Source: Tenericutes bacterium HGW-Tenericutes-2 (GTDB lineage: Bacteria; Bacillota_I; Bacilli_A; Acholeplasmatales; Acholeplasmataceae). Taken from it: a stretch of 64,000 bases of DNA. The position numbers and the translations under genes were made by a program. Below the pieces are notes generated by a model. It ran no database searches. It worked only from the letters and a program-made list of their open reading frames with translations, and was not told where the DNA came from. Position 1 is the stretch's first letter. The number at the start of each line of letters is the position of its first letter. Shown in pieces: positions 1,790 through 50,600 of the stretch. The DNA lies in contig PGXL01000002.1 in NCBI GenBank assembly GCA_002839095.1, positions 1-64,000 on the forward strand, read 5' to 3'.

Positions 1790-1839
1790 TTCAAACTATA
1801 TATTTTCATGTTCAAACTATATTGTTTTTCATGTATAAT
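1790..1839 (+). promoter_or_regulatory. promoter with tandem operator-like repeats, carbohydrate operon
   Basis: TATAAT lies at 1834-1839, with a weak -35 (TTCAAA, 1811-1816) 17 bases upstream. Two imperfect direct repeats abut each other at 1790-1810 and 1811-1833. Both begin TTCAAACTATAT and end TTTCATG. The second overlaps the -35 region. A weak -35 with direct repeats is typical of activator-dependent promoters, so sugar-responsive control is inferred. No regulator gene is adjacent. Confidence 0.65.
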
Positions 1840-1898: not shown

Positions 1899-4070
1899 AT
1901 GAAAAAAATCGTTATAGGATTCTTATTGTTTCTAGTGCTCTTTTTAGCTAGTGTTGGTATACAGTTTGCGATCAATATGGGAATTGATCCGCTACCAAGT
2001 AGACCAACAGAATCAATCAACTCAGGCGGTGGAGATCGCCTTCTTTACTATTATTATCTAGAAGATAAAGGAGAAGCACTTCCTGAAGGAATAATTCTAA
2101 CCGATGAGTTCGTTAATAATGAACTCAAGGGAACATTTGACTATATCAATGGACGTTATGATGTTGCTGATTTTAGAGTCAATGCACTTATTCGTCTATA
2201 TCTAAGCTATGGAGATATGATGCATCCAGATACGAAGGATGATATTAAAAATGTACTCCTAAATTTTAAATATTGGATGGACCAAGGTGGAGAGGATTCC
2301 ATGTGTTTTTGGTCAGAGAATCACCAAATCCTATTTGCTGTAGAGGAATACCTAGTTGGCCAAGAATTTCCTGATGAGATATTTACAGTTGATGGAAAAA
2401 CCGGAGCAAAGCATATGGAAATGGCGGCAGGCCGTATTGAAGCGTGGATGTCTCAACGCTTCACCTATGGTTTTACAGAATGGTATTCCAATAACTATTA
2501 TCCAGAAGATATATCACCAATGGCAAACTTTATCCAATTCTCAAATGACCCAGAAATGGTCAATCGAATGAAAATGATTATGGATCTCTTATGGTTTGAT
2601 ATGGCATCCCAAAGCTTTAAATATGAAGGATTAGATAGTAGTGGAGCACCAAGAACCTATTATATTTTTAATTCAAGTAGTGGTAGAGCTTATTCTGATA
2701 ATAGAATGAGTGATGAAACAGGAAATCGGATGAGAAACTTTATCGACTTTGTTATGCAACCAGAAGAAACGAAAGATTTTGAAAATAGCTGGTCAACATC
2801 ATCGAACGGCTTCTTTAACTGCTTTAGACAAATGATGGAAACATTAAACCAAAGTAATGAACCATATTATGAAATACCTCAAGTTATTAAAGAAATATTT
2901 AATGATGATTCAGAAGAAAAAATCATTAAATCGAGTCAATCCTTAAATGTTGAAGAGCTAAAAGGAGAAGGACTACTCGGGCTTGATGACCATCAGATCA
3001 TGATGCAATGGAATATGGAAGCCTTTAGTAATCCAGAGGTTGTTAACAATACAATCAAATATATGTCTAAAAACAATATGTTTAGAAATGAATTCTTAAA
3101 TGATTTCAAGCTAGTCAATTTATGGCCACTTAGAGCGTTTAATTTACTCGGTATGGTTTCATCTACTTTAAAACCTTCAACCAATGGTGTAGCAATTGAA
3201 AGAGCAAATGTTTATACCTATAAAACAAATGATTATTCCATGCATACCGCTCAAGCTTACCAACCAGGTGAATATGCAGATCAACATGCAGTCACATCCA
3301 TTAATTTAAGTAATTTAGTTTCTGTCTTTTCAACACAACCAGCTAAAATTCCTAGAAGAAGTGGAACACCAACCTATTGGACAGGAAATGGTAGACAACC
3401 ATATAGTGTTCAAGAAAAGAATGTGAATATCACTATCTATCAACCGCCTACTAAAGTAGGTTTTATGGAACCAATGATTGTTAAGGAAAAAACACACATC
3501 TTTTTCCCTTATGAGCTATTTGATGAAGTAAATGAGTCCTTCATCAGTCAGGGCTATATATTTGGAAGAGTTGGAAACGCAATGATTGCAATTCAATCGA
3601 GACATGCACTAGAATGGGTACCTTTCGATATCAGTAATCAAGAAGGAAATCGTGATGATATGCTTGTTAGAGGTAGTGCTAAGGATCTTTTAACAGAAAA
3701 ATATGATCTTGTTCAAACAGGATCTGGAGATCATTACTTTGTTACTGAGTTATCCTCTCAAACAAATGAAACATTTAGTGCATTTATATCTAGATTTATG
3801 GCAAATGATATAAGCTATGACACAACTAAACACCAACTAACCTATCAAACACGCTTAAACGGAGAAACGACTTTAAAGACTATGGTAGCAACCTTTGATT
3901 ATAGCTTTACAATAGGTGGAGTGACTCAAAACCTAGAATACCAACGCTATGAAAATCAATATGTAGCTACTACCTCCATCCAAAGAAAGCCAAAGGAAAT
4001 TATCTATAGCTTCAATGGACACTCTTTAACGCTTCATTATGAAAACAATATAAGAACCATCGGTAACTAA
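1899..4070 (+). CDS. membrane-anchored carbohydrate-active enzyme candidate, unassigned family
   Basis: This 723-residue protein begins with a signal anchor (about residues 3-24) and should act at the outer face of the membrane. The start at 1899 follows ACGAGG; the ATG 24 bases upstream has no ribosome site. The helix-rich N-terminal half carries WSENHQ (138-143) and GFTEWYSN (191-198). The C-terminal half looks beta-rich. A cytosolic paralogue lies at 6283-8124 and shares these motifs plus GVAIERAN. A helical toroid followed by a beta sandwich is the fold of several polysaccharide lyases, and the operon also encodes a GH105-type enzyme that consumes lyase products. I infer a lyase or glycosidase but cannot name the family or substrate. 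Confidence 0.6.
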   Translation: MKKIVIGFLLFLVLFLASVGIQFAINMGIDPLPSRPTESINSGGGDRLLYYYYLEDKGEALPEGIILTDEFVNNELKGTFDYINGRYDVADFRVNALIRLYLSYGDMMHPDTKDDIKNVLLNFKYWMDQGGEDSMCFWSENHQILFAVEEYLVGQEFPDEIFTVDGKTGAKHMEMAAGRIEAWMSQRFTYGFTEWYSNNYYPEDISPMANFIQFSNDPEMVNRMKMIMDLLWFDMASQSFKYEGLDSSGAPRTYYIFNSSSGRAYSDNRMSDETGNRMRNFIDFVMQPEETKDFENSWSTSSNGFFNCFRQMMETLNQSNEPYYEIPQVIKEIFNDDSEEKIIKSSQSLNVEELKGEGLLGLDDHQIMMQWNMEAFSNPEVVNNTIKYMSKNNMFRNEFLNDFKLVNLWPLRAFNLLGMVSSTLKPSTNGVAIERANVYTYKTNDYSMHTAQAYQPGEYADQHAVTSINLSNLVSVFSTQPAKIPRRSGTPTYWTGNGRQPYSVQEKNVNITIYQPPTKVGFMEPMIVKEKTHIFFPYELFDEVNESFISQGYIFGRVGNAMIAIQSRHALEWVPFDISNQEGNRDDMLVRGSAKDLLTEKYDLVQTGSGDHYFVTELSSQTNETFSAFISRFMANDISYDTTKHQLTYQTRLNGETTLKTMVATFDYSFTIGGVTQNLEYQRYENQYVATTSIQRKPKEIIYSFNGHSLTLHYENNIRTIGN

Positions 4071-4071
4071 T

Positions 4072-4815
4072 ATGAAGCTAGGTGTTCAGACGTATACGAT
4101 TAGAAAAACTGCTCAAAAGAATTTGTCTCATGCATTCGATGAGTTACTAAGAATTGGAATTCAGAGAGTTGAGCTTGCAAGACTAAATTTAAATGAAGAA
4201 CTAACACTCACTCTATCTAAAAAGAAAATTGAAGTCCTATCCATCCAAATGAAGATGCGTAAGTTATTTAAGGATATCGATCATATTTCAGCATTCGCTA
4301 AAAAGGTCGGATGTAATTTAGTTATTGTTTCAGTTCTATCCATCCCTGCAATTTTCTTTGGCAAAAGAAGTCTACAAAAGTTTACAAAAAAATTAAATCT
4401 ACTTGTTGAACTCTATAAACAAAAGGGAATTCGAGTCGCCTTCCATCACCATCATTTTGAGTTCAAAAAAATAGGTAATGAAACCAAACTGAATTACATA
4501 TTAAATCATACAGTAAATGATTTATACATCGTCTCTGATACCTATTGGTCTAAAAAATCAGGATATGAACCTCATGAGGTAATTGAACGAATTGGAGATA
4601 GATTAATAGGAGTTCACTTAAGAGATTATTTGATTCAAGAAAATGGGGTACCAAAAGACTGTGAGGTAGGATCTGGTTTAATTGATTTCGACCAGGTAAT
4701 GCTAGCATCAAAAAATGCACACTATCTAGTCATTGAACAAAATACAAAAACTGAAATGGAAAGCATTGAAAAAAGTGTAGATTATTTAAAAACACAATAT
4801 AAGGAGCTATTTTAA
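4072..4815 (+). CDS. TIM-barrel sugar isomerase/epimerase (AP endonuclease 2 family)
   Basis: The product is a 247-residue xylose-isomerase-like TIM barrel. It opens KLGVQTYTIR and carries the metal-ligand style segments AFHHHHFEF, SDTYW, GVHLRDY, CEVGSGLIDF and VIEQ near the C-terminus, in the order expected for this superfamily. The reaction is probably an isomerisation or epimerisation of a sugar or uronate released by the neighbouring enzymes, but the substrate cannot be read from sequence. The gene starts one base after the stop of the anchored enzyme and ends directly against the transporter start, so all three are cotranscribed. Confidence 0.8.
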   Translation: MKLGVQTYTIRKTAQKNLSHAFDELLRIGIQRVELARLNLNEELTLTLSKKKIEVLSIQMKMRKLFKDIDHISAFAKKVGCNLVIVSVLSIPAIFFGKRSLQKFTKKLNLLVELYKQKGIRVAFHHHHFEFKKIGNETKLNYILNHTVNDLYIVSDTYWSKKSGYEPHEVIERIGDRLIGVHLRDYLIQENGVPKDCEVGSGLIDFDQVMLASKNAHYLVIEQNTKTEMESIEKSVDYLKTQYKELF

Positions 4816-6270
4816 ATGAACGCGAAAAAATATGATGTCGATTTAGCCCAAATGAAGGGTAAAGAAAAATTAATATTTGCCTGGGGAGACGTATTCGGTG
4901 GTGGAGCACAAGCAATGATTGGTGTGCTATATTTAATCTTCTTAACAGATGTCATCGGACTCAATCCAGCGATTGCAGCTACTGCAATTCTAATCTCAAA
5001 GATTTGGGATGCAGTAAGTGATCCAATTATGGGTGTTATTAGTGATAACACAAGAACGAAGATTGGTAGAAGAAGACCATTTATTATGGCTGGTGGCTTT
5101 CTAGTATTAATCGCGTTTGCATTAATGTGGCTTCCAATAGGTGGATGGGAATCAGATGCTGCAAAGGTCGTCTTTGCAATATCAACATTCTTATTCTATA
5201 GCACCATCTCAACCATTATTGCAGTACCCTATAGCTCACTATCTGCTGAAATAACGACCAATGTCAAGGAGCGTAATCAAGTCAATGTGATTAGATTAGT
5301 AGTTTCTACACTAGCATCTGCAGTATGTACACTAGTTCCAGCAATGATACTAGAAATATTTAAAGCAGGAACCATAGGAATCAATACATTCTATTTAGTC
5401 ACTGGTATTGGCTTTGGACTATTCTTCGCGCTACCTTTAATTCTAATCGGATTTTTCACAAAGGAACGTGTGGAGCTACCTAAAGAAAAAACTGTTTTTG
5501 AAGTGAACTCATTTGTTAAACCACTAAAGGTAAAGGCATTTAGAGGTTTAGTTTATATGTATTTATGTCAAAGCATTTCAATGGATATCTTATCTGCTGG
5601 TATTATTTATTATTCACTTTATGTCGTTAGAGGAAGTGCTACTGTATTTTTAGGAACCTTTATTGGAGTTCAGCTTTTAATGTTTCCAATCATTAGTAAG
5701 CTAGTCAATACTGTGGATAAAAAGAAGATCTATTACTTTGGACTACCTATTGCTATCCTTGGTTTTATAGGGGTTGGACTTTATCCTTCTGATTGGTCAG
5801 TGATTGGTGCTTATGCGTTAACCGCAGTAACAGCATTTGGATTTGCTGGTGCACAGCTCATGAGTTGGATTATATTCCCTGATGCGGTTGATGCTGGTGA
5901 GTTAAAGCTTAAAGAAAGACCTACTGGAAGCTTCTCAGGTATTATGACATTCATTAGAAAGACTAGCTCTGCGATAGCAATTCAAATATTTGGGATTATG
6001 CTATATATTTCAGGATATGTTAAACCAACAACAACAAATCAACAACCAGTTCAACCTGACAATGCATTATTAGGTATTCGTATCGCAATGTCATTATCCT
6101 TTGTTATCCTAATGACTATTGGTTATTTCGCAGCAAGAAAATTTGTATTAACCAATGAAAGAAGCCTTAAGGTTAGAAAGTTCTTAAAGATTAGAGAAGA
6201 AACAGGATTAGAAAATTTAAGTGTAGATGATCAAATGGAGTTAATGAAGCTTGAATCAGAAATTTTCTAG
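4816..6270 (+). CDS. GPH-family sugar:cation symporter (MelB-like)
   Basis: A 484-residue integral membrane protein with about twelve helices. The signature DAVSDPIMGVISDNTRTK followed by IGRRRPF is the hallmark of glycoside-pentoside-hexuronide:cation symporters. Family members import oligosaccharides or uronides with Na+ or H+. The start abuts the stop of the epimerase gene. Between a surface enzyme and a cytosolic paralogue, it most likely imports the oligosaccharides made outside. This is inferred from position, not from substrate residues. Confidence 0.9.
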   Translation: MNAKKYDVDLAQMKGKEKLIFAWGDVFGGGAQAMIGVLYLIFLTDVIGLNPAIAATAILISKIWDAVSDPIMGVISDNTRTKIGRRRPFIMAGGFLVLIAFALMWLPIGGWESDAAKVVFAISTFLFYSTISTIIAVPYSSLSAEITTNVKERNQVNVIRLVVSTLASAVCTLVPAMILEIFKAGTIGINTFYLVTGIGFGLFFALPLILIGFFTKERVELPKEKTVFEVNSFVKPLKVKAFRGLVYMYLCQSISMDILSAGIIYYSLYVVRGSATVFLGTFIGVQLLMFPIISKLVNTVDKKKIYYFGLPIAILGFIGVGLYPSDWSVIGAYALTAVTAFGFAGAQLMSWIIFPDAVDAGELKLKERPTGSFSGIMTFIRKTSSAIAIQIFGIMLYISGYVKPTTTNQQPVQPDNALLGIRIAMSLSFVILMTIGYFAARKFVLTNERSLKVRKFLKIREETGLENLSVDDQMELMKLESEIF

Positions 6271-6282
6271 TAGGAGGCCATC

Positions 6283-8124
6283 ATGGCTGTTAAAGAAGAT
6301 GTTGGAATGCTTATCAAAATGAATGTCAAATGCTTTAAGGATATTAAGAAATTAGATGAAGGAGAAAAAATCGATGAGTCTCAAATTTTAGAGCTCGTTG
6401 ACTTTGTGAATAACAGATACGATTGCGCAGATTTTAGATTAATCTCCTTAATCAAAACCTATTTATCCTATAAAGATCTTTTATCAACCGATACTGTAAA
6501 AGCTATTGAAGATGCTATGCTTCATTTTAAGTATTGGATGGATGAGCCTGGTAGTGATGGGATGTGCTATTGGTCTGAAAACCATCAATTACTCTTTCAT
6601 ACCTGCGAGTATTTTGTTGGGGACTTATTTCCTGACCATTCATTTTCAAATGATGGACATATTGGTTTATATCATAAAGAGAAGGCAAAGCCTAAGATAT
6701 TAGACTGGCTTGAAAATAGATTTAAATATGGATTTACTGAATGGCATTCAAATACCTATTATGAAGAGGATATCGCTCCACTTTGCGTTTTGGTGGATCA
6801 TGCAAAGGATATGGAGATTGTAAGTAAAGCGAAAATCATTTTAGATGTTTTATTCCTAGATTTCGCTATGCATAGCTTCAATGGTTATTTTGTAGCGAGT
6901 AGTGGAAGATGCTACGAGGAACAAAAAAAGGATAGAGAAAAAGCGGATGTCAATGATATACTCGCTCATGCATTTCAAATTCAAAAAAGAGATTATGATT
7001 ATGAAAGAATCTCTGCACTATTTATCCTATGCAAGAACTATAAAGTTCCGGAAATTATTATTGATATCGCAAAGAATAAAGATAAACAAGTCATAAAGGA
7101 TTCAATGGGCTTGAATTTATCTGAAATCAAGCATGAATTCAAGGATAATGATATCAATAAAAAAGGAATGTTTCTTTGGTCCATGGAGGCATTTACCAAT
7201 AAAGAGTCCATCAATATGACGATGAAAATATTTAATGCATGGAACCTAAAAGAAAACAATTTTTTAAGAGACCTAGAATCTGTCAATATTCCTATCATTA
7301 GAAAGCTTGGTTTATTACCTTTGGTTGTAAAAATACTCAATCCAGCAACACAAGGAGTCGCTATCGAAAGAGCGAATACCTATACCTATAAAACAGATAG
7401 CTATATGCTTTCCACAGCTCAAAAATATCACCCTAAAAAGTTTGGTGATCAACAGCATATTTGGCAAGCAACAATGAATGATAAAATATCAGTTTTTTCA
7501 ACCCATCCAGGGTCACCTATGTTTGATGATGCAGCAAGAAACTTCTCTCCATCATTTTGGGTTGGAAATGGTATCAATCCTCATGCCATTCAGCATGAGA
7601 ATAAAGTATTTTTGATCTATGATTTATCGCCAAGAAAAGGCTATTTAGAGCGAAATAGACAAGAGTATGTTCACTTCTATTTCCCAAAGGATGAATTTGA
7701 TGAGATTATCGATAAGGGCTCGATTATCCTAGCTAAAAAGAAACAAAATTACATCGGAATTATCGCATCAAAAAATCCTAAAAAAATTGAAAACTCTGAA
7801 ATTATTTATGAAGGAAAGTATAGTCAATTTATAGTCGTTTTAGGGGATGAAAAAACAGATATTTTGTTTGACCATTTTGTCAAACGAATTGAATCTAGTC
7901 AAGTTATCTTTACAAAGAAAAAAATTGTGATGAAAAATGATCATTTATATGAGCTCAAGATGCTTAAGGATTTTAAGATTGACGGTAAAGTCATAGATAC
8001 TGAATATTCAAGATATGAAACACCTTATGTTCATGCAAAAAGAAAGCCAGAAGAACTTACTATAGCATATATGAATAAGAGATTATATTTGAATTTCAAT
8101 CAAATGATCAGGGAGGAAAAGTAA
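6283..8124 (+). CDS. cytosolic paralogue of the anchored carbohydrate-active enzyme
   Basis: This 613-residue protein follows a strong ribosome site (TAGGAGG) and has no signal peptide, so it should be cytosolic. It aligns with the product of 1899-4070 along most of its length: WSENHQ (97-102), GFTEWHSN, GVAIERAN, YTYKT, STAQ, and a VGNG motif matching TGNG in the partner. Both end in a beta-rich region with a RYETPYV-like segment. Shared Asn, His, Tyr and Trp positions suggest the same chemistry on shorter, imported substrates. I do not recognise a named family; lyase or glycosidase is inferred from fold pattern and the adjacent GH105. Confidence 0.6.
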   Translation: MAVKEDVGMLIKMNVKCFKDIKKLDEGEKIDESQILELVDFVNNRYDCADFRLISLIKTYLSYKDLLSTDTVKAIEDAMLHFKYWMDEPGSDGMCYWSENHQLLFHTCEYFVGDLFPDHSFSNDGHIGLYHKEKAKPKILDWLENRFKYGFTEWHSNTYYEEDIAPLCVLVDHAKDMEIVSKAKIILDVLFLDFAMHSFNGYFVASSGRCYEEQKKDREKADVNDILAHAFQIQKRDYDYERISALFILCKNYKVPEIIIDIAKNKDKQVIKDSMGLNLSEIKHEFKDNDINKKGMFLWSMEAFTNKESINMTMKIFNAWNLKENNFLRDLESVNIPIIRKLGLLPLVVKILNPATQGVAIERANTYTYKTDSYMLSTAQKYHPKKFGDQQHIWQATMNDKISVFSTHPGSPMFDDAARNFSPSFWVGNGINPHAIQHENKVFLIYDLSPRKGYLERNRQEYVHFYFPKDEFDEIIDKGSIILAKKKQNYIGIIASKNPKKIENSEIIYEGKYSQFIVVLGDEKTDILFDHFVKRIESSQVIFTKKKIVMKNDHLYELKMLKDFKIDGKVIDTEYSRYETPYVHAKRKPEELTIAYMNKRLYLNFNQMIREEK

Positions 8125-9194
8125 TGCTAGATCAAAGCTATTTCACAAAGGTCGTTGACCTTGCAGATTATATCACTAAAACATGGGATCCTAAGATGAA
8201 ATGGATGTGGGGAGAAGCTCTTTTTGGATACTCTTTATCTCTTTTAGATGAACATTTAAGAAGTGATAGATATACAAAGTTTTTAACTGATTATTGTGAC
8301 TACTATGTCAAAAATCCTCCAAGAGTTGACCAAAGTGATACTTCAGCTCCAGCACTTATTACCTATCAAATGTATAAGAAAACTGGAAATGAAGATTATA
8401 AAAAGCTAACAGATCGCGTCTTATATTATATAAAGAATGAACCAAGGTTGATTGAAGATTCTGTTAATCATTTAGGAAACAGCTTGGAGGGAAAGTTTTA
8501 CCCTAAGTCAATTTGGGTGGATAGCTTAATGATGTTTTCGGTCTTTCCATCTCATTATGCAAAGGATAACAAAGACAGTGAAATGATGGATATTGCAAGT
8601 CGTCAGCCTAGAGTCATGTCTAAGTATATGCAAGACCCAAATAGCAAATTATGGTATCACTGCTATTGGACAAAACAAAAAACACACTACCCAAGAAGAA
8701 AGATATTTTGGGGTAGAGGTAATGGATGGGTGGTTGCATCCCTACCTATGATTTTAGAAAATATTGGTAATCATCAAGAAAAGGATAACATCATCAAAAT
8801 CTTTAAAGAAACAGCAGAAGCGTTACTTCCTTATCAAAGAAGTGATGGAGCATTTGAAACAGTATTCAATAAGGTTGGAAGGACGTATCGTGAATTATCC
8901 TTTACAGCTTTAGTTGCTAGAGGGTTCCTTCAAGGACATCGTATGGGGCTACTTGACGATCAATATTTAGAATCAGGCTTAAAGGCATACAAGGCAGTAG
9001 TTGATGCATTAATCTACGAAAATGATGCTATCTTTATGCCAGAGATCAGTGGACCAACCATCCCACTTCCACTATTTCCATACCTAGGATATAAGTTCAT
9101 TCCAAGAGCTAAAAACTGGTCCTTTGGACTTGCTGCATTGATATTTGCAGCAATCGAATTTGATAAGATTAAGAACAAAGAAGCGAAACTCTAA
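8124..9194 (+). CDS. unsaturated uronyl hydrolase, GH105/GH88 type
   Basis: A 356-residue six-hairpin glycosidase. WVDSLMM (131-137) holds the candidate catalytic Asp133, and FWGRGNGW (195-202) is the family hallmark seen in YteR-like proteins. These enzymes hydrate the C4=C5 double bond of terminal unsaturated uronic acids left by polysaccharide lyases, releasing a keto sugar. No signal peptide is present, so it is cytosolic. Its ATG overlaps the preceding stop by one base (TAATG) behind GGGAGG, giving translational coupling. Its presence is the best clue that the operon handles lyase products of a uronic-acid polymer. Confidence 0.88.
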   Translation: MLDQSYFTKVVDLADYITKTWDPKMKWMWGEALFGYSLSLLDEHLRSDRYTKFLTDYCDYYVKNPPRVDQSDTSAPALITYQMYKKTGNEDYKKLTDRVLYYIKNEPRLIEDSVNHLGNSLEGKFYPKSIWVDSLMMFSVFPSHYAKDNKDSEMMDIASRQPRVMSKYMQDPNSKLWYHCYWTKQKTHYPRRKIFWGRGNGWVVASLPMILENIGNHQEKDNIIKIFKETAEALLPYQRSDGAFETVFNKVGRTYRELSFTALVARGFLQGHRMGLLDDQYLESGLKAYKAVVDALIYENDAIFMPEISGPTIPLPLFPYLGYKFIPRAKNWSFGLAALIFAAIEFDKIKNKEAKL

Positions 9195-9451: not shown

Positions 9452-9645
9452 AGGAATAGAAACCCCAGAATTCCAAAGATAATGAGATAATATAAATTGA
9501 GTTTCATTGTCTTTTTAATTGTGAATATAACCTCTTTAGGTATCTTAATCTTTGTATATTTCTTAACAATCAATAATACAAACCATAAAATATTTAATAG
9601 TGCCCAGAATATGGATAGCCCAATGCAAATATATGCGATAATCAT
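9448..9645 (-). CDS. small membrane protein coupled to the kinase gene
   Basis: A 65-residue protein with two predicted membrane helices (about 3-26 and 50-65) joined by a lysine-rich loop. It has a clear ribosome site (GGAGGT, 5 bases from ATG) and overlaps both neighbours by ATGA junctions. No known family is recognised. Tight coupling to the kinase, which itself ends in hydrophobic helices, suggests a membrane complex; this is inference. Confidence 0.6.
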   Translation of the reverse strand: MIIAYICIGLSIFWALLNILWFVLLIVKKYTKIKIPKEVIFTIKKTMKLNLYYLIIFGILGFLFL

Positions 9646-12236
9646 GCGGCACCTCCAAAAATAAGTCGGTATAAATTAACAAAGAAGTCAACTGCGTTCT
9701 CAAAGAATTGAATGATAGCATCCAATCGAATAAAATTTTTCACCATTTCAAGCTTTTCTGCAAAATTGATTTGAGATAGCAATGCTTCAAGCTGATTAAT
9801 ACCTACAGTATTTAATACATAAATCATCATTACAATCAAGGTTGATAAAATTAAATGATTGAGTATCTTATTGGTGAATAGAAGCACATGGACAGCACCT
9901 TTTTTATTTTCTAAAACAAACTGTCTCATCTTTCCATGATCTTTTGTATCACCAGTTCCACAAATCGGACATTTGGTCATGCTTTGGTGGTAATAATGAT
10001 ATTCAGATGTTAAACACTTTTTACTTTCAAATGATAGCTTTGATAATGCACCTTGCCATTCATTTGGAGAGGTTCTGCTTATTTTATCTGGGTTAGTTAC
10101 AATCAAAGCTTTTCTCATTGCTCTTTGATAGTAGTTTGGGAATAGCTCTAATAGCTTCGCCTTTTCATCGATTTCAACTCCAGGAACTGTTTCCCTATGG
10201 AGGAAGTAGTTATTCTCAACAAAATAGGATAAAGGTTTACTCGCTAGCTTGTGGGTGCCCTTAAAAGGATGAGTATCCTGAAGTATCATATGGATGATGA
10301 CTGCTAAGTAGTATCTAATCGTTTGTTTACCTTTTGGTTCAAAAACAAACTCCTTAGGTGTTTCAGGAACAATCTCCTTAACCTTTACTTCCTTTTCAAT
10401 AACATTGTTTGATTTTTCAAATTCAAAATCTTCAACAGTGGTTGACGATTTGAGATCTATTATTTTTTCTTCTTTTTCAACCTTTTTTTCAACCTTCTTT
10501 TCTAAAGGTGAACGAATTAATTCTAAATCCTTTTTTCTAAGTTCTTCGAGACGTTTTCTTTCAAGCTCTCTTTCCTTTTCTTTTGCATCCTCTATAGTCT
10601 TTAAATACTTCTTATAGTTTTGTTCATAAAAGTATTCTTGAGGTAGATAGTCCTCTCTTTGGAAAACCATAGCCTTTGTTGTATCATCAAAAGATCCTAG
10701 GAAAACAAAATCAGGAATAAAGGGATTTAAATCCTTATCGATAAAGATTTGATTGAATTCAATGGGTATATTATATTTTTCAAGAGAAGAAAACATCGAT
10801 GCGATATTTCTAGCAACGATAATCTTCACCTTATCTGTAATCTTTAATTTACCAAGTCTATTATTTTTTAAAAACGTTTGAAGTCGATAAAGGTTTGGTA
10901 TTCTCTTACTGACATATCCTATGACCTTATCATGCTTCATAATAAGCTCTTGAGGAGGTGCGAAATAAGCAGGCATTTTTTGATAAACCTTTTCATTCTT
11001 TAACGCTTCAATGCGTGCTCCTAATTGATATTTATCAAGCATTTTAGGATTAAAAAAGACTGCTAAGCGTTTACTGTTCTTTAAGGTGTAGCTCTTACTA
11101 GCGAGTGTTTCGTCATATACATGATTCTCATCGACGATAATCTCTTTATCATCCGTATCATATTTGACATACTTTCTAGAAATCGTTTTAAAGTAATCTA
11201 ATAAATAATCATAGTCCTTTGTTTGTTCTCTAGCGCATATTGGACATTTTTGAAAATGATTGGGATAGAAATGTGCCTTATTTTTTTTACACTTTTTAAT
11301 GTTATCCTTTACAACTCTCAAACCAGCTGCCCATTCATCTGCTGTTGGTCTATTAACGACATCATTATGCTTATCAAATGCTCTTGTGAATAAATCTTGA
11401 ATTTGTTTTGGGAAGAAGCTAAAAGGCATTGAGTTCTTTGGAGGAATAATATTATTGTTTAAAGTACTATATGGAAATATTTCATGCTCCATATTGTAGT
11501 TAATCGCATTTCCATCAAAGCCCATCACACCCTTGATTCTTGCTGAAAATGGATGGACACCCATCATTAAAATCTGAAAGATCAATATTGCTAATCCATA
11601 GTTATCGTGATTTGGAATTCTTTTTGGTTCAACAGATGATTTCTTTTTCGCCTCAAAGACTTCTGGTGGTGTATAGTCTGGTGTAAATACCTTGCAGTGA
11701 TAAAGCTTTGATTCTGATGAAACCTGGAATGAATCTGTATCTACAACACCGATTTCAAATCCTGGATAGACAAAGAAGTCACTTGTGTTAATATCACCAA
11801 TGACAGTATCATTTTTATGAATAAAGCTCATGACCTTAGCTAAATTAATTGAAATCACTAGTCGGTCATACCAAGTAATATTTGGAAACTTTGTTTTTTG
11901 TAGTCCCGGGGTAATAACATGTGATAATTGATTCTTTGCTTGCACTCTACGCATTAAATAACCAATGAATTTTCTATTTTCATCATAAATGACATAGCTT
12001 GGCCAAGCAATAATTGTTAAACCATTATAATCTAGAAGACCTGGTTTCTTTTGAACCATCGCTTTAATTTTGTCTACAATTTCAGGCATTCTTTCTAAAG
12101 CGCGTTCTGTATAAACCTTAACTAAAATATTAGGATTTTTAGCAAGCTTAAAAACACTACCTTCACCACCGCTACCAATAGGTTTTGTATCATCTACTAA
12201 TATTTTAGAACCGTCCTCTAAATAGTACTTTCTCAT
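9642..12236 (-). CDS. Ser/Thr kinase-pseudokinase tandem with two zinc-binding motifs and membrane tail
   Basis: An 864-residue protein. Residues 1-310 form a kinase: glycine loop GSGGEGSVF (21-29), candidate Lys40, catalytic-loop GDIN (Asp148) and DTDSF (166-170) in place of DFG. A Cys/His cluster with CPIC (331-334) follows. Residues 385-540 and 635-735 repeat this order (IGYVSKR, YLPQE, HPF, NEW) but lack the catalytic Asp, then comes a second CPIC (756-759). A charged linker (about 540-635) splits the second copy. Two hydrophobic segments lie at 790-812 and 840-862. With the vWA and PP2C genes upstream this matches the TerY-phosphorylation triad described by Anantharaman, Iyer and Aravind. 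Substrates are unknown. Confidence 0.82.
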   Translation of the reverse strand: MRKYYLEDGSKILVDDTKPIGSGGEGSVFKLAKNPNILVKVYTERALERMPEIVDKIKAMVQKKPGLLDYNGLTIIAWPSYVIYDENRKFIGYLMRRVQAKNQLSHVITPGLQKTKFPNITWYDRLVISINLAKVMSFIHKNDTVIGDINTSDFFVYPGFEIGVVDTDSFQVSSESKLYHCKVFTPDYTPPEVFEAKKKSSVEPKRIPNHDNYGLAILIFQILMMGVHPFSARIKGVMGFDGNAINYNMEHEIFPYSTLNNNIIPPKNSMPFSFFPKQIQDLFTRAFDKHNDVVNRPTADEWAAGLRVVKDNIKKCKKNKAHFYPNHFQKCPICAREQTKDYDYLLDYFKTISRKYVKYDTDDKEIIVDENHVYDETLASKSYTLKNSKRLAVFFNPKMLDKYQLGARIEALKNEKVYQKMPAYFAPPQELIMKHDKVIGYVSKRIPNLYRLQTFLKNNRLGKLKITDKVKIIVARNIASMFSSLEKYNIPIEFNQIFIDKDLNPFIPDFVFLGSFDDTTKAMVFQREDYLPQEYFYEQNYKKYLKTIEDAKEKERELERKRLEELRKKDLELIRSPLEKKVEKKVEKEEKIIDLKSSTTVEDFEFEKSNNVIEKEVKVKEIVPETPKEFVFEPKGKQTIRYYLAVIIHMILQDTHPFKGTHKLASKPLSYFVENNYFLHRETVPGVEIDEKAKLLELFPNYYQRAMRKALIVTNPDKISRTSPNEWQGALSKLSFESKKCLTSEYHYYHQSMTKCPICGTGDTKDHGKMRQFVLENKKGAVHVLLFTNKILNHLILSTLIVMMIYVLNTVGINQLEALLSQINFAEKLEMVKNFIRLDAIIQFFENAVDFFVNLYRLIFGGAA

Positions 12237-12985
12237 TCATCTCTCACTTCAACAAATAGTAATGTTTTATCATCATCTGTTTTTTTATTAATTCGATCAG
12301 ACGCTAAAAATCTTTCTAGTGACTTTTGGACTTCCTCTTGATTGTAGTTTTCATGGGAAAACACCTTGAAAAAGGGATCATAAAACAAATGACTGACTGT
12401 CTTATCCTTAGCAGATATACTAATGGATTCAATACCATCACTCATTAACGCGATCATTGGATAAAACTTATCGCATTTTTCATAGATACCATTTTCAATC
12501 GATTCAAGATTACAAATGGAGAAGGTTGCGTTTGCGTATTCTCCTCTTTGTTGCTTCGCAATGACTTCATATTCATCTTCAATCTTGCCGATTGCTGCAC
12601 AATCGCCAACCTGACCATAATATTGAGATCCATTAAAGCTTACAAAAACCAAAAGTGTAGCATTTAAATCCTTAATATTCACTTCGTTAATTTTAGCAAC
12701 CTCAAGCAATTCATCATTGGTTTCTATAAAGCCTTCCTTTATCAAGGTGATGATATCTTCATCATCCATCTTGACATCTAAATGCTTTTCTAAGAAATTA
12801 ACGATAAAAGTAGAAGCTGTTAAGCTTCCTAGCTCTGCATGAGACGCACTGCCCATACCATCACTAACACATGCAATAAATCCTAATCCATTGGGTAGTA
12901 TTTGATAAGCGTGATTGTCATGACATGGTGTTTCTGTAGATAAATGCGAGGTGCCAACAACAGATGCACCATAAAGTCTAACCAA
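12233..12985 (-). CDS. PP2C-family protein phosphatase
   Basis: A 250-residue cytosolic PP2C/PPM phosphatase. Metal-binding motifs are CHDNH (Asp23), VSDGMG (Asp42, Gly43), LMSDGIE and DDDKT near the C-terminus. The first part, with CHDNHAYQI, resembles the phosphatases found beside TerY-like proteins. It should reverse phosphorylation by the adjacent kinase. Its stop overlaps the kinase start (ATGA), and it begins 3 bases after the vWA gene ends, so the three are made together. Confidence 0.88.
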   Translation of the reverse strand: MVRLYGASVVGTSHLSTETPCHDNHAYQILPNGLGFIACVSDGMGSASHAELGSLTASTFIVNFLEKHLDVKMDDEDIITLIKEGFIETNDELLEVAKINEVNIKDLNATLLVFVSFNGSQYYGQVGDCAAIGKIEDEYEVIAKQQRGEYANATFSICNLESIENGIYEKCDKFYPMIALMSDGIESISISAKDKTVSHLFYDPFFKVFSHENYNQEEVQKSLERFLASDRINKKTDDDKTLLFVEVRDE

Positions 12986-12987
12986 GA

Positions 12988-13686
12988 TTAGACCTCAAAT
13001 TCAAAGACATCATCACTTGGTTTTTCAAGCTTTAATGTATCTCCTACACGGCTTGATGAAACAGAAGATAATGATGAGGATACCCATTGGAAGAGTTCCT
13101 TAAAGTTTAGACCATTTAATTTAAAGACTCTATCCCCAGATCCTGAAATCTGGCGTAATCTTTCGATATTTGCATTTTCAACGCCGATACCAAAGAAAAT
13201 AACTTTTTTACCAGATATTGCATTTTGTAGCATTCCGCTTGCTTCACTGACGTTATCTGTTGGTTCACCATCAGTAATTACAAATAACCATGGTCTATAA
13301 TATGAAATACCAGCATTTCTGTATTCTGATTTTCTGTTTTCGATATTTCTAAGCGCTGTGACAATTGCTTCACCCATTGGAGTCATCCCATTGACCTTTA
13401 ATTCTGGAGCTTGAGATTCTGAAACGGTAGCAAAGTTTTGAACAACAGAGACACTTTGACCAAATGTAATCACCGATAAATCAACTCTCACACTTGCTAG
13501 ATCATCATCACGAAGTGCTGCATAAAGTGCGTGAACACCTTCATTGAGTTGGTTAATTGGATTACCAGACATGGAGTAAGAAGTATCAAGTAATAAAACG
13601 ACAGGGCATCGTGGTTCTGGATTATCCAGAAGGGCTTCATCAACGACTTCCTTTTCAAATTCAAAATCATTTCTTAAATCACTCAT
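12988..13686 (-). CDS. TerY-like von Willebrand factor A protein
   Basis: A 232-residue cytosolic vWA domain. The MIDAS residues are visible: DTSYS (34-38), Thr102 in GMTPMGE and Asp139 in ITDGEPTD. This is the TerY branch that pairs with PP2C and kinase genes in stress-linked phosphorylation systems. Oddly, the N-terminus holds DFEFEK, which also occurs in the kinase linker (about residues 603-608), and the C-terminus ends VFEFEV. GAGAGG lies upstream of the ATG. No TerC or TerD homologue is in the window. Confidence 0.88.
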   Translation of the reverse strand: MSDLRNDFEFEKEVVDEALLDNPEPRCPVVLLLDTSYSMSGNPINQLNEGVHALYAALRDDDLASVRVDLSVITFGQSVSVVQNFATVSESQAPELKVNGMTPMGEAIVTALRNIENRKSEYRNAGISYYRPWLFVITDGEPTDNVSEASGMLQNAISGKKVIFFGIGVENANIERLRQISGSGDRVFKLNGLNFKELFQWVSSSLSSVSSSRVGDTLKLEKPSDDVFEFEV

Positions 13687-44580: not shown

Positions 44581-44633
44581 TATTTTTTTGTTAAAATAGG
44601 ACTAAGCAATTGAATGGGAAAGGTGGAATATAT

Positions 44634-47600
44634 ATGCCATCGTTATTAATGATTCAATGGGGTGTCGTCGGATTCTTCGTATTGATACACTTCCTACTAG
44701 GATTTATGAGAGGGACCAGTAAATCAACATACTTCACAATAGTTAGTATTGTGATGACGTTTGTGACGCTGTGGCTTGTATCACTCATGTCGATAAACGC
44801 ACTCTTTGTTGGAGGGAACACCTTCCAAAGCTATATTAATATGATTGCAGCAAGGGTAGGGTTTACTATACCTACTGAAGTGAGCACTTATTTATTTGAC
44901 CCAGCAATTACCCCTTTTATTATTGCAATCATTGACCTAGTGATTAGAATCATTGGATTCTTTTCGCTTTATCCTATTATTAAAGGTTTTTTCACACTAG
45001 TTATATTCAAACCGATTTGGAAACGTATTATACTTCCAGCATTATTAAAAAGACAAAATGATAAGCAATTACAAAGATTTGAAGAAAGAAATAACGGTAA
45101 ACAAAAGTTTGTTCCAGCTAAAAGATTAAGAAAAAATGTTTTTAGTCGTTTTGGTGGTGGATTGATGGGTGGACTTCGTGGTGCTGTTGTTGCTTTCGTT
45201 TTTTTACTACCATTACTTGTAATGGCAAGCTTTATCGATGGATTTGGTGATATATTACCAATTCAATCCTCTAATGGTAGCCAAGCATTAAGTGGAGGAG
45301 ATCAAGAATTAGTAGCAATACCAGGACTTGATGGAGCCTTAGGTGATATGCTTGCAGATTATTTAGCTCAAATTGATGAAATGAATGCAAATGGTTTAAC
45401 ATCGATAACGAGTCAAATCGTCATTAATGGCAAGCCCTTGGAAAGATATTTATTTGATATGGTGTTCACCACAAAGGTTGTTGAAGAAGATAAAGTTACT
45501 GAAATCAATTGGGCAGGTGAATTAGAAAGTATTTTAGGTGTTGGTAAGGTTATCCTAGAATCAGGATTTTTAGAAGAAGGCTTCCAGGTTGAAGATATTT
45601 CAAAGGAACATCTTCCTTATATTGAACAATTATTTACCCACATTGGAAATTCAGATTTACTAGGCTATATGATTCCATTCGCTACACGATATGGTGTTGA
45701 AAACCTACTACCAGATATGGTTGGTGGAGTTAACATCAATGAAAGAGAAAAGAGTAAAGCTGCAATCGATGAGTTTGTAAATATCGATTGGAAAGTTGAA
45801 TTCAATAATATTTATGGTATTGCTGAAGCTGTGTTAGAATTTGGTTCAGTATCTGAACTGATGGTTTACGCAAATAACCCAGAATTAATAGCTGAATTAT
45901 CTCCTGAAGAAGGAGCTAAGCTTGCAAATATATTTAGAGCACTCGGAAATATGGAGACTTTATCCTTAATCTCTGCTGCACTCGATCTAGCAACTACAAT
46001 GGATCAAGTCAAGGAACAAATTCAATGGATTGCTCCTGAAGAAGTTGAAGAGTACCTCCAAGATCGTTTAGCATTTATAATTGATGATCCTAAATTTTTC
46101 ACTGGTGATAGTGGAGAAATCTATCGTATTGCTGATTTCATAGAAGCAATTTTTACTGATGAATTTGGTGATGTTGACCTTACAGCTTTCTTAAACGCAT
46201 CTGCTGATCCAGAAGCCTTTGTTGAAGCTCAAAATGAAGAATGGATTAATAATCTTTTTGTTAAATTGGTTGATATCCAACTTCTAATAGAATCCATTCC
46301 AATGGGTGTTGACTATGGTCTTTACAGTGCATCTGGAAGTCAAGTCAGTGCAGAGCTTGCTGAAGAAATGGCAATTCGATTAGAAGAAATTGATTGGGAA
46401 GCTGAAATTTTAAATGTTGGTGAAATTTATACAGAAGCATTAAAGATTGGTGTAGCAAGCTTACTTGGTGATAATCCACAGTATTATGCAATCATTGATG
46501 ACATCGCAATCAATCATATGGATGGTATTCGTACGATTGTTAGTAAGATTTTCGAGGATTCAGCACTTGTGAATGCAGCAATTGAGATTGCATCCCCAAT
46601 GCTTGTTGAAACCATGATTGAAGATCCAGAATTAAAAGAAATAGCATTGAAAGCATTGATGAGTGATCCAGATAGTGGTGAAGTTGACTTCAACTTTGGT
46701 CAGGAGTTCAATAATGTATTAACAATCGTTGAATCGATTTATAAATTTACGACTGTTACTGAATTGAATAGTTTTTCAACAATGACCTTGGACCAAAAAG
46801 TTGAACTTTTTGCTGGATTTGGTTCATTAAATCAAACAGAATACAATACATTTAAAACTGCATTTGAAAACCTGCAAATCTTAAATAGAACTGATGTTGC
46901 AGCTCTTGATTATGCAAAGGCAAGATTCGCAGTTGAACAGCTATATGTTCCAGAAGAAATTGAATTAGGAACAGAAATCACTTCAATTATTGGATTTGTT
47001 TATTATGCAGCGAAATACACGCATGAAAATGCAAACCTTTATAACTCATTTGAAGAAATCGACTTCGCTCCATTATTTGCAGACGAGGTTTTTAGAAGTC
47101 ACATATTACCGACCAATTTAGAAAATCATTCTAATTTCTTGCTGGCTAATATTGCACACAATCTAAAACATTATTCAAATGATGTGAGCATCTCACAATA
47201 TTTAGCATTACCTCAAGCTTATTTAGATGCATCTCCTGAAAGTGAACTCTGGATGGATGAATTAAATGCTTTATTAGGCTCAGTATTTGATCTAGCCGCA
47301 TCCTTTGAGGATTCAACTGTATTAACACTATCCTTAAGAGATATGACGTTATTTGCTGCAGATCCAACTGGTGCATCCATAGAACTCATTACTCAATTTG
47401 CTGATTTAACCAAGGCTGAACAAGCATTTGGAAGCTTGGATTCATCCGTAATCCTAAGAACATCAATTAAGACTGCAATTGATACATTTGGTGCAACCAC
47501 AGCAGCAACTCTTGGAGGATATGAAGTCAAGACTCCAGAAATCGCTAAAGATGGTGAAATGCTAGAACTTGGTGTATTAGTTGACTTAATTAACGGTTTA

Positions 47601-50600
47601 GCAAAAATCGTTGATGATTTGAATAACACATGGAATTATACGACAATATCACAAATGACAGCTGATTTATCAGCAAATGCGATTTTTCCTGCTTATAATA
47701 ACCTAGCAGATGAAACACTATTATCATTTGGAGAAATTATCCTACTTAAGGGTGTTATTAGTGAATTATTATTAAGTGAAGATTTTCAAGCATTTGGTGT
47801 CCAATCATTAAATGATGCACAAGAAACTATGGAAGTCCCTGCAGATTTCTTAGAATTAGCTCCTGAAATGCTAGATGCTGATGGTGTGAAGGGTGAAGAA
47901 ATAGGTAAACTATTTATATCCATTAAATCATTACAATTAGCAAGTACAGAAGAACTAAGTTCATTTGGTCCAAATACATTATCTGCATTAATTGATAGAA
48001 ATGTTGTTGGAGCTAAAGATGATCTAGACCGCTTCTTTGATTCAGGATTCATTTATACATTATTAGATAAAGTGATTCAATTAGATGTATTAAGCAATTT
48101 TGCTAACGATGCACTATCTGGTGCATTCGGTGATGTTGATATCACTATCGATTTAACTCCTCATCCTGCTTCCCTTGGTAATGCTATTGATCATGAACCA
48201 ATTGAAGTTGGTAGAGTGACTAAGCAAGAATTTAGAAACATTATCGTTTCTCTATCTCTACTTGGCGATTTTAGTACAATCGGAATTGAAACATTTGTAA
48301 ATATGGCGGATCCATATGCTGAAACAGATGATTTCACAACATTCCTTGCATCCGATTTCATTTATGTCGTTTTAGGACGTCTCTTTGAAAATGAAGGCTT
48401 TGGTGAATATGTTGGTGGCATGCTATCTGGTGCATTTGGCGATGGCATTGATCTTGACATGGGTGCTCCACTAGACGCACTTGGAACTACAGGTGTTGAA
48501 GAAGACATCATGACAAGAGCTGAGATGAGAAACCTAATGGTATCCTTCAAGCTGATTGGGCTTGATGAAAGCACGGATATACAAATCCCTGCCATTTTAG
48601 GTATGCTTGGTCAAAATGAAGATATAGATGGAGAAGATGATTTCGATCGATTCTTAAATTCTAAATATATCGCAGATAAGCTTTCCATACTCTTATTATC
48701 AGATGCAGTCATTGAATTATTAGCAGCTGATCGATTCACACCGGGAGATTTTGTTATGCCAGCATCCTCATATACAACCATTGGTGATAGAGATCGCCTA
48801 ACAAATGATGAATTATATAATCTATTTAACGGTTTAAACATTTTAGGATTATCAGAGCTTGAAGGATCAAGCTTTAATATCGAACAAATCACCTCATTAT
48901 CTCCAGAAGAAATCGAAAATGTTCTTGATTCCTCATATTTATACGTAACCATCGACTTAATGCTTAAGTCAGAAACAAGTCTAAGCTTACCTGCTGATGT
49001 ATATGAAACAGCTGGTGAATTTGATGGTATGGTTAAAAAGGTTGAAATCATTAATGTCTTTGGTGCATTTGATGTATTAGGTACCTCAAATCCTGCAGAT
49101 ATTGATATCAACGCCATTACGATTGCAGATATTCAAGCATTACTTGATTTAAATTCTATAATCATTGATCAAATGATATCAGATGCAATCGTTGATGCAT
49201 TAACATCAGTTCCAGCAACTGCATATAATGCTGAATTAACAAGACTGACAAAAGATGAAATGAACAATATGGTTCAGGTCTTATTGATACTTGCTGATGG
49301 TGATGACCAACAAACACTTGTAGGATTAACTCCAATTGATACATCAACCATTACAAGAGATAAGCTTAGAGACTTCTATGAATTAGATTCTAGACTTGTG
49401 GATAGAATATTATCTGAAGCTATTATCGATTCAGGCATTTCAATTCACTCATTATCCTATGATGATGAAAGTGAAGTTGATGAGTTTGACAATAAGCTTG
49501 ATTTAAAGAGATCAGAATTAGGTGCATTAATTGATGCATTAGATATATTAGAAATTGATATTAGCAATGCAGGAGCAATTGATTTAAATACATTTACTCC
49601 AGAGAAGATTGAAGAATTACTTGACCTAGACTCCAATTTAATCTATAGATTAGTTGGTGAAGGTATTATCGATCAAAATCTACAAACTGATGAATCACTA
49701 GCAGCTGATGGAATTGATGCTAACTATGACCCGGAGGCACCAGGCTCAGACCTTAAGGTATCAGAAATGTATGCTTTAGTTGCAGCTATGCAAGCGATGG
49801 GTATCACAAGCTTAGGTATGACAATTGATGTCAATACGACAACAATTGCACAGCTACAAGCACTTCATTACATTGGATTAGGAATTGATCCTGTGTTAGA
49901 TACGCATCAATCTGTAATCGTTCATCGATTACTTTCAGAAGCAATTATCGGTGCACTTACTGTTCCAAGTGGTGCTTACATGGTAGGATCGACACTTGAC
50001 TTATTACCAAATGAAATCCAAGGTGTTATCGGATCTCTACTCGTATTAAGCGAAGGTGATGATCAAGAAACATTAGATGGTTTAACTCCAGTCGATACTT
50101 CTGTATTAACTCCGGATGCCATCGAAGACTTACTTGATTTAGACTCACTCATTATTTATAGAATGGTAGCTTCAGGAATTATTGATCAAAATCTACATAC
50201 TGATGAATCACTCGCAGAATTAGGTGATGATAACTATGATGAAAATGCTATTGGTGAGGATTTAAAGATTTCTGAAATGTATGGCTTAGTTGAAGCAATG
50301 CGCGTGATGGGTATCACTGATTTAGGTACTACAATTGATATCGATGCAACTACTATTGAGCAACTTCAACAACTACACTATGTTGGTTTAGGTATTGATC
50401 CAGTCTTAGATACTCATCAATCCTTAATCGTTCATCGATTGTTATCAGAAGCAATCATTGGAGCATTAACGATTCCAAGTGGTGCTTACATGGTTGGTTC
50501 AACACTAGACTTGAAGCCTGAAGAAATTCAAGGTGTTATCGGATCCCTTCTTGTATTAAGTGGTGACGATGACCAAGAAACATTAAACGGTTTAACTCCA

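Follow-up and report, generated by a model that had tools for sequence, protein, structure and literature searches.

Family X, whose members are annotated as hypothetical proteins wherever a product is shown, probably makes the unsaturated ends that glycoside hydrolases (GH) of families 88 and 105 need. Two of its members are encoded in a five-gene operon on the plus strand, in the first 9.2 kb of a 64,000-nucleotide stretch from Tenericutes bacterium HGW-Tenericutes-2 (Acholeplasmataceae; contig PGXL01000002.1, positions 1 to 64,000 of the forward strand). We call this whole stretch the window. The more specific reading, that X proteins are beta-eliminating uronate enzymes of a family without assignment, namely lyases with an alpha/alpha-toroid and beta-sheet build, could in our judgement equally prove right or wrong.

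Results

The first gene of the operon (1899..4070, +) encodes the surface paralogue of family X, predicted to consist of an N-terminal hydrophobic anchor followed by an exoplasmic enzyme domain. Its open reading frame (ORF) extends from 1875, the mechanical start. Since an AGG lies a few bases upstream of 1899 and orthologues begin there, 1899 is the better start. The cytosolic paralogue, of 613 amino acids (6283..8124, +), was assigned by its homology to the surface paralogue, by its AlphaFold model and by fold searches. Between the two lie a TIM-barrel sugar isomerase/epimerase-like protein (4072..4815, +; AP_endonuc_2, 9.3e-9, besides weak matches of the IolE and ribulose-phosphate-epimerase kinds that stay under the cut-off) and a GPH-type sugar:cation symporter (4816..6270, +). 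The symporter matches MFS_2 (PF13347) with 226.5 bits against a cut-off of 27 (5.8e-67), and scores 218.3 bits with TIGR00792, just below the cut-off of 231.35. The last gene (8124..9194, +) encodes a GH88/GH105-type unsaturated uronyl hydrolase (Glyco_hydro_88, PF07470, 1e-50, above cut-off), in which a signal peptide is not evident. This protein aligns with YteR, and its own Asp133 falls at the residue that is Asp in 1nc5 and Asn in the otherwise alike 2gh4, the position of the catalytic Asp. All five genes are open in translation table 11, which reads them without TGA as a sense codon, and the gaps between neighbouring genes measure 0 to 12 bases where the genes do not share a single base. 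The same gene order was found again in relatives. Among named records, an Acholeplasmataceae metagenome-assembled genome (L004) is nearest, with 93% identity over 521 residues.

The two paralogues share 33% identity over 670 columns (351 bits, E 4e-116), and both contain WSENHQ, GFTEW(Y/H)SN and GVAIERAN. The surface protein has a single N-terminal hydrophobic stretch, which is kept in its orthologues; inspected by eye, the cytosolic one has none. A preliminary description of this stretch had proposed a paralogue pair with common motifs, one of them anchored, from a carbohydrate-active family without assignment, next to a GPH symporter, a TIM-barrel isomerase and a GH105. The alignment and the Pfam matches bear out the pair and its neighbours. 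The lack of assignment was also borne out, as a credible match was absent in Pfam, NCBIfam and the PDB sequences. No lyase match was obtained in Pfam or NCBIfam for the members scanned (19 in set A1 and 27 in set A3), and PF14583 (PL22; PL, polysaccharide lyase) was absent among their Pfam matches. Two scans of viral contigs returned no relatives, and no printed description of the family was found in the open-licence literature. Pfam matches to CPV_Polyhedrin were discarded as chance (best 1.1e-4; 18.8 bits for the window protein against a cut-off of 27). The PDB matches of the alphaproteobacterial profile A5 were all short and fell on other kinds of protein (best E 0.0077). Family X is named by no Pfam, NCBIfam or PDB model; CAZy's own models lay outside this comparison, and X may be an unpublished or very recent family. 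In kind, X would be a new family within a known way of working.

A GH105 gene lies within the X cluster in 18/18 of the Bacillota genomes examined, the window not counted. These were taken from the 23 carriers that the order and class searches yielded, the window and four others standing outside the count. Family X is also found on 199 of 72,556 plasmid records searched by tblastn, in Rhizobium, Sinorhizobium, Pseudosulfitobacter and Haladaptatus, with identities of about 25-29% among the matches listed and at least 80% cover in 16 records. In the 14 plasmid loci fetched from these 199 records, picked for spread, GH88/105 occurs within the X cluster in 12, adjacent to X or one gene off in 11 and about 7 kb away in Pseudosulfitobacter. 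The coupling of X to GH105 seen in the window therefore extends to distant phyla. In six plasmid loci (L054-L057, L105 and L106) the cluster also includes kduI. The Gemmobacter and Pannonibacter operons read GH88-kduI-X-ABC importer, that of Gemmobacter having kduD and a kinase besides, and no annotated lyase was seen in either of them. Within L106, the X of Rhizobium sp. RCAM05350 (7210-9499, +) is spread over three ORFs and seems to be broken, by decay or sequencing error, inside a GH88-kduI-X-kduD cluster. The alphaproteobacterial members have an additional N-terminal region of roughly 300 residues, and one member of A3 has a PA14 match. In Haladaptatus the two X genes (L052, L108) have Gfo/Idh/MocA oxidoreductases and sugar isomerases for neighbours, and L108 also holds a heparinase II/III family protein close by; these X proteins perhaps have another substrate or role.

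Family X is present in 15/150 genomes of the order, in 12/18 of the window's genus, in 12/395 of the class and in 5/392 of the phylum, the class and phylum sets overlapping. In the order, kduI was found in 14/15 X carriers versus 62/135 non-carriers (Fisher 0.0006, relatedness ignored), G102 being the sole carrier without it. Within the genus the figures are 11/12 carriers and 1/6 others (Fisher p 0.004, again ignoring relatedness). In the loci examined from genus g21 (L034, L035) and family f23 (L041, L099, L100), X is of the cytosolic kind only and stands beside GPH and GH105. This distribution suggests that cytosolic X, GH105 and an importer form the core unit, to which the anchored copy would be an addition. 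In G485, both kinds of X, GH105, an IclR-like regulator, KduI, a short-chain dehydrogenase/reductase and a TIM barrel form one gene run.

The genome of the window (2,295,664 bases, 52 contigs) encodes the downstream pathway. Contig C29 holds a KduD-like short-chain dehydrogenase/reductase, KduI, a TIM barrel, an IclR-like regulator (by eye), a PfkB kinase, a KDPG aldolase and a GH28; in G586 a matching cluster adjoins the X operon. A polysaccharide utilisation locus had been called unexpected in a Mollicutes-like genome. This carries little weight for a 2.3 Mb genome read by table 11, with a full 2-keto-3-deoxygluconate pathway and GH28, in a genus where X is in most genomes. Nor is the argument supported that X must be the lyase because no recognised one is present, as the same genome encodes pectate lyases: a PL1-type lipoprotein-like lyase and a PL2-type lyase with an ABC importer on C47, and a 1633-residue protein with a PL1 match on C7. 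A cluster of the C47 kind adjoins GPH-X-GH105 in relatives L034 and L035, so that oligomers of pectic origin are the likeliest substrate. GH105 enzymes able to take unsaturated galacturonate off homogalacturonan-derived oligomers have been described (PMC7267202). The substrate of X is likely to be pectic, that is oligo- or polygalacturonate. RhaA was found in 0/8 genus genomes tested, the window's included, and in 6/18 X carriers overall; its absence from these eight argues against rhamnogalacturonan there, which we disfavour as substrate in the window's species. The usual cytosolic oligogalacturonate lyase, PL22 (PF14583), was found in 0/18 carrier genomes. Each sought in 61 Bacillota genomes, PF07940 (heparinase II/III) had no match and PF08124 (PL8) matched in 2, the window's genome not among them. 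GH4 includes alpha-galacturonidases, and the GH4 gene that follows GH105 in L037 (17421-18806, +) fits a pectic substrate. L085 (2705-3571, -) and L034 (1696-2556, -) encode, between PL2 and the permeases of the ABC importer, a lipoprotein-like protein with no Pfam match (at E 0.01 for the L034 copy, at 0.1 for the L085 copy).

The pectate lyases raise the question of whether X acts after them, as a glycoside hydrolase or other enzyme, while PL1 and PL2 alone feed GH105. The importer encoded with them, their position beside X-GH105 in two relatives and the GH95, GH65-type and GH94-type chains that VIA lists as matches to the surface model's beta domain would suit this. In those glycosidases the beta domain precedes the barrel, and X has the reverse order. 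Furthermore, the six plasmid clusters unite X and kduI with no PL1 or PL2 match, in a search limited to a set list of proteins, and lyases head the Foldseek lists of both models. We consider such a role for X quite unlikely.

According to the AlphaFold models, X appears to be built like the polysaccharide lyases with an alpha/alpha-toroid followed by an antiparallel beta-sheet domain. The models were obtained from input alignments of five rows each, with the same five proteins, and are thus not fully independent. The cytosolic model (mean pLDDT 54, pTM 0.57) has helices at 21-357 and then mainly strands at 374-612, which places the toroid first and the beta domain second; the surface model has mean pLDDT 51 and pTM 0.48. 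With Foldseek, the first six ranks for the cytosolic model are HepC, heparinase III (two entries), PL15 alginate lyase (two chains) and chondroitin AC lyase (best E 2.7e-3), and ranks 1-11 for the surface model are toroid lyases only (best E 1.3e-4, prob 0.97). The best VIA matches are GAGase VII for the cytosolic model (Z 8.7, root-mean-square deviation (rmsd) 4.3, 220 aligned) and alginate lyase 9irq for the surface model (Z 9.9, rmsd 13.2, 379 aligned). As the VIA Z values are near the background reported for the tool, we put weight on the ranking and not on the scores.

Residue conservation points in the same direction. In 27 aligned X sequences, which span bacteria and one archaeon, 38 columns were tabulated, and D47, D50, F51, E99, N100, H101, F105, W142, E153, S156, Y159, D163, G208, R209, Y211, Q390, P409, G428 and H464 are invariant. 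N100 and Y159 are 59 residues apart in all 27 rows. From the positions in Table 4 of PMC12088678 we computed Asn-Tyr distances of 54 (PL35, PL12), 57 (PL17), 59 (PL8 AC lyase) and 53 (PL39). X thus has the Asn and Tyr about 53-59 residues apart that mark toroid lyases, a likeness of sequence spacing that does not imply spatial equivalence. From the same table, the catalytic Tyr-His distances are 155 in PL35, 130 in PL12, 155 in PL17 and 166 in PL39. In proteobacterial X, which is without an insert, 146-152 residues separate the Tyr from an invariant Gln, at the place of the His in those families. The Gln belongs to a G-x-Q-x-x motif, with Gln390 in 27/27 and His392 in 18/27. If this match is right, X carries Gln where those families hold the catalytic His.

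The polar Asn, His, Tyr, Arg and Tyr, invariant across bacteria and an archaeon, also bear on the idea that X acts as a C5-epimerase on uronate, or as a binding protein with a lyase fold that aids uptake without turnover. Human dermatan sulfate epimerase (6hzn) does appear in both VIA lists (Z 7.8 and 8.0; rmsd 12-15). Such conservation, and the tie to GH88/105, which requires unsaturated ends, speak against this idea and make it highly improbable.

Upstream of the operon, a possible -35/-10 pair (TTCAAA, 17 nt, TATAAT; 1811..1839, +) has 10/12 matches to the promoter pattern; the region holds 31 promoter-like sites versus a mean of 39 in shuffles, i.e. no excess. Just before it, the window encodes an ATPase with AAA_14 plus DUF4143 (328-1632, +). 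Downstream (9642-13686, -) lie kinase-like (weak PF00069), phosphatase-like and von Willebrand-like genes, the last two called by eye, and a similar set adjoins the X operon in L036. A 2681-residue open frame (44610-52655, +) has no Pfam match at E 0.001.

Discussion

A context rich in GH88/105 and kdu genes could also be explained if X were an oligouronide 4,5-dehydratase, removing water from the saturated non-reducing-end uronate and alternating with GH88/105 from the chain end. This is a serious rival, since it is a known solution in Bacteroides caccae chondroitin and Formosa ulvan catabolism. BcGDH, formerly GH154 and of toroid type (similar to X by VIA), supplies GH88 in this way, and the unrelated P29_PDnc supplies GH105 (PMC12269599, PMC8511951). 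The order of key residues is alike and their spacing similar, N176/N177, Y229, R285 and Y289 in BcGDH and N100, Y159, R209 and Y211 in X, as compared without superposition. In the VIA list of the cytosolic model, BcGDH (9o4u) comes second (Z 8.2, rmsd 4.8, 229 aligned). Moreover, the small operons of GH88, KduI, KduD, kinase and importer would be enough for such a cycle, and in rhizobial loci L053, L058, L103, L104 and L107 X is accompanied by GH28, a hydrolase leaving saturated ends. On the other hand, 9o4u is only rank 33 for the surface model (Z 7.0), and the GH154 chains in the PDB, 9o4u included, gave no match to X by hmmsearch with profiles A1 and A3 up to E 10. The BcGDH chain has only 384 residues; the C-terminal beta domain and the surface copy are found in X only, and a surface-anchored enzyme with GH105 inside is hard to account for. 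We therefore think a dehydratase somewhat unlikely and prefer a lyase, because of the two-domain lyase layout and because a surface copy is easier to reconcile with a depolymerase than with a dehydratase acting on chain ends. The earlier proposal of the pair as lyase candidates stands as the leading guess, given the gene context in remote phyla and the fold searches, though a 4,5-dehydratase would fit the context equally.

Several observations weigh against a lyase that supplies GH88/105. Both models are poor, with TM-scores to their matches of about 0.2 and VIA Z near background. Searching the PDB sequences with the A1 and A3 profiles retrieved no lyase up to E 10, and hhalign of X against seven plasmid heparinase II/III-type and two PL8 proteins gave probabilities of at most 0.5%, a weak negative because the target profiles are very shallow. 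At the aligned X motif it is Gln390 that is invariant, and not the beta-domain His that serves catalysis in most families of toroid lyases. Recognised pectate lyases (PL1, PL2) exist elsewhere in the window's genome, KduI is widespread in the order regardless of X (76/150 genomes), and no GH88/105 was found near X in 2/2 Haladaptatus loci.

X resembles the toroid lyases (PL8, PL12, PL15, PL17, PL21, PL23, PL35, PL39) in domain order, top fold-search ranks and Asn/Tyr spacing. It differs from them in the lack of a detectable sequence relation, in a third catalytic His that is not invariant at the motif aligned, and in its own invariants Asp47, Asp50, Glu99, Glu153, Arg209, Tyr211 and His464. 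With BcGDH and the other former GH154 beta-D-glucuronate dehydratases it shares a VIA structural match, the Asn-Tyr-Arg-Tyr order and a GH88/GH105 neighbourhood. Like cytosolic X as proposed here, PL22 Ogl acts on imported oligogalacturonides in the cytosol; unlike it, X lacks PF14583, as do 18/18 carrier genomes. RhiT of Dickeya, which we take to be a GPH protein, and RhiE, presumably a PL4, offer a further parallel. There, rhiTN encodes an importer and a RhiN-kind unsaturated galacturonyl hydrolase fed by the secreted lyase RhiE (PMC3870299). Unlike that system, the lyase candidates here are X proteins on both sides of the membrane, and neither the window's genome nor the seven other genomes of the genus that were tested have RhaA. 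In the PL35 locus of B. caccae the lyase serves GH88, as we propose for X (PMC12269599).

We hypothesize that anchored X would cleave polymers or long oligomers of uronic acid at the cell surface, and that the GPH symporter would take up the fragments. Cytosolic X could then cut these fragments, or the saturated ends that remain after GH105 action, and so produce unsaturated ends. GH105 would hydrolyse the latter and release 4-deoxy-5-keto-uronate for KduI, KduD, KdgK and KdgA, encoded on another contig. In the active site, Asn100 may neutralise the carboxylate and Tyr159 may serve as acid and/or base, assisted by Arg209, Tyr211 and His101. A bolder proposal, which we hold to be unlikely as a whole, is that across Bacillota, Proteobacteria and haloarchaea X works as an exo-acting dehydratase or lyase on the two-domain scaffold of lyases. 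It would run a closed, residue-by-residue oligouronide cycle with GH88/105, with an invariant Gln for the catalytic His, the surface copy being a duplicate of the cytosolic one.

In summary, loci with GH88/105, KduI and KduD and no named lyase represent a gap in uronate catabolism, and family X is one candidate to fill it in rhizobial plasmids, marine Rhodobacterales and Acholeplasmatales. If its activity proves true, a new PL or dehydratase family would be established and hypothetical genes could be named. It would also reveal a way in which Acholeplasma-like bacteria can attack polyuronides at their membrane surface.

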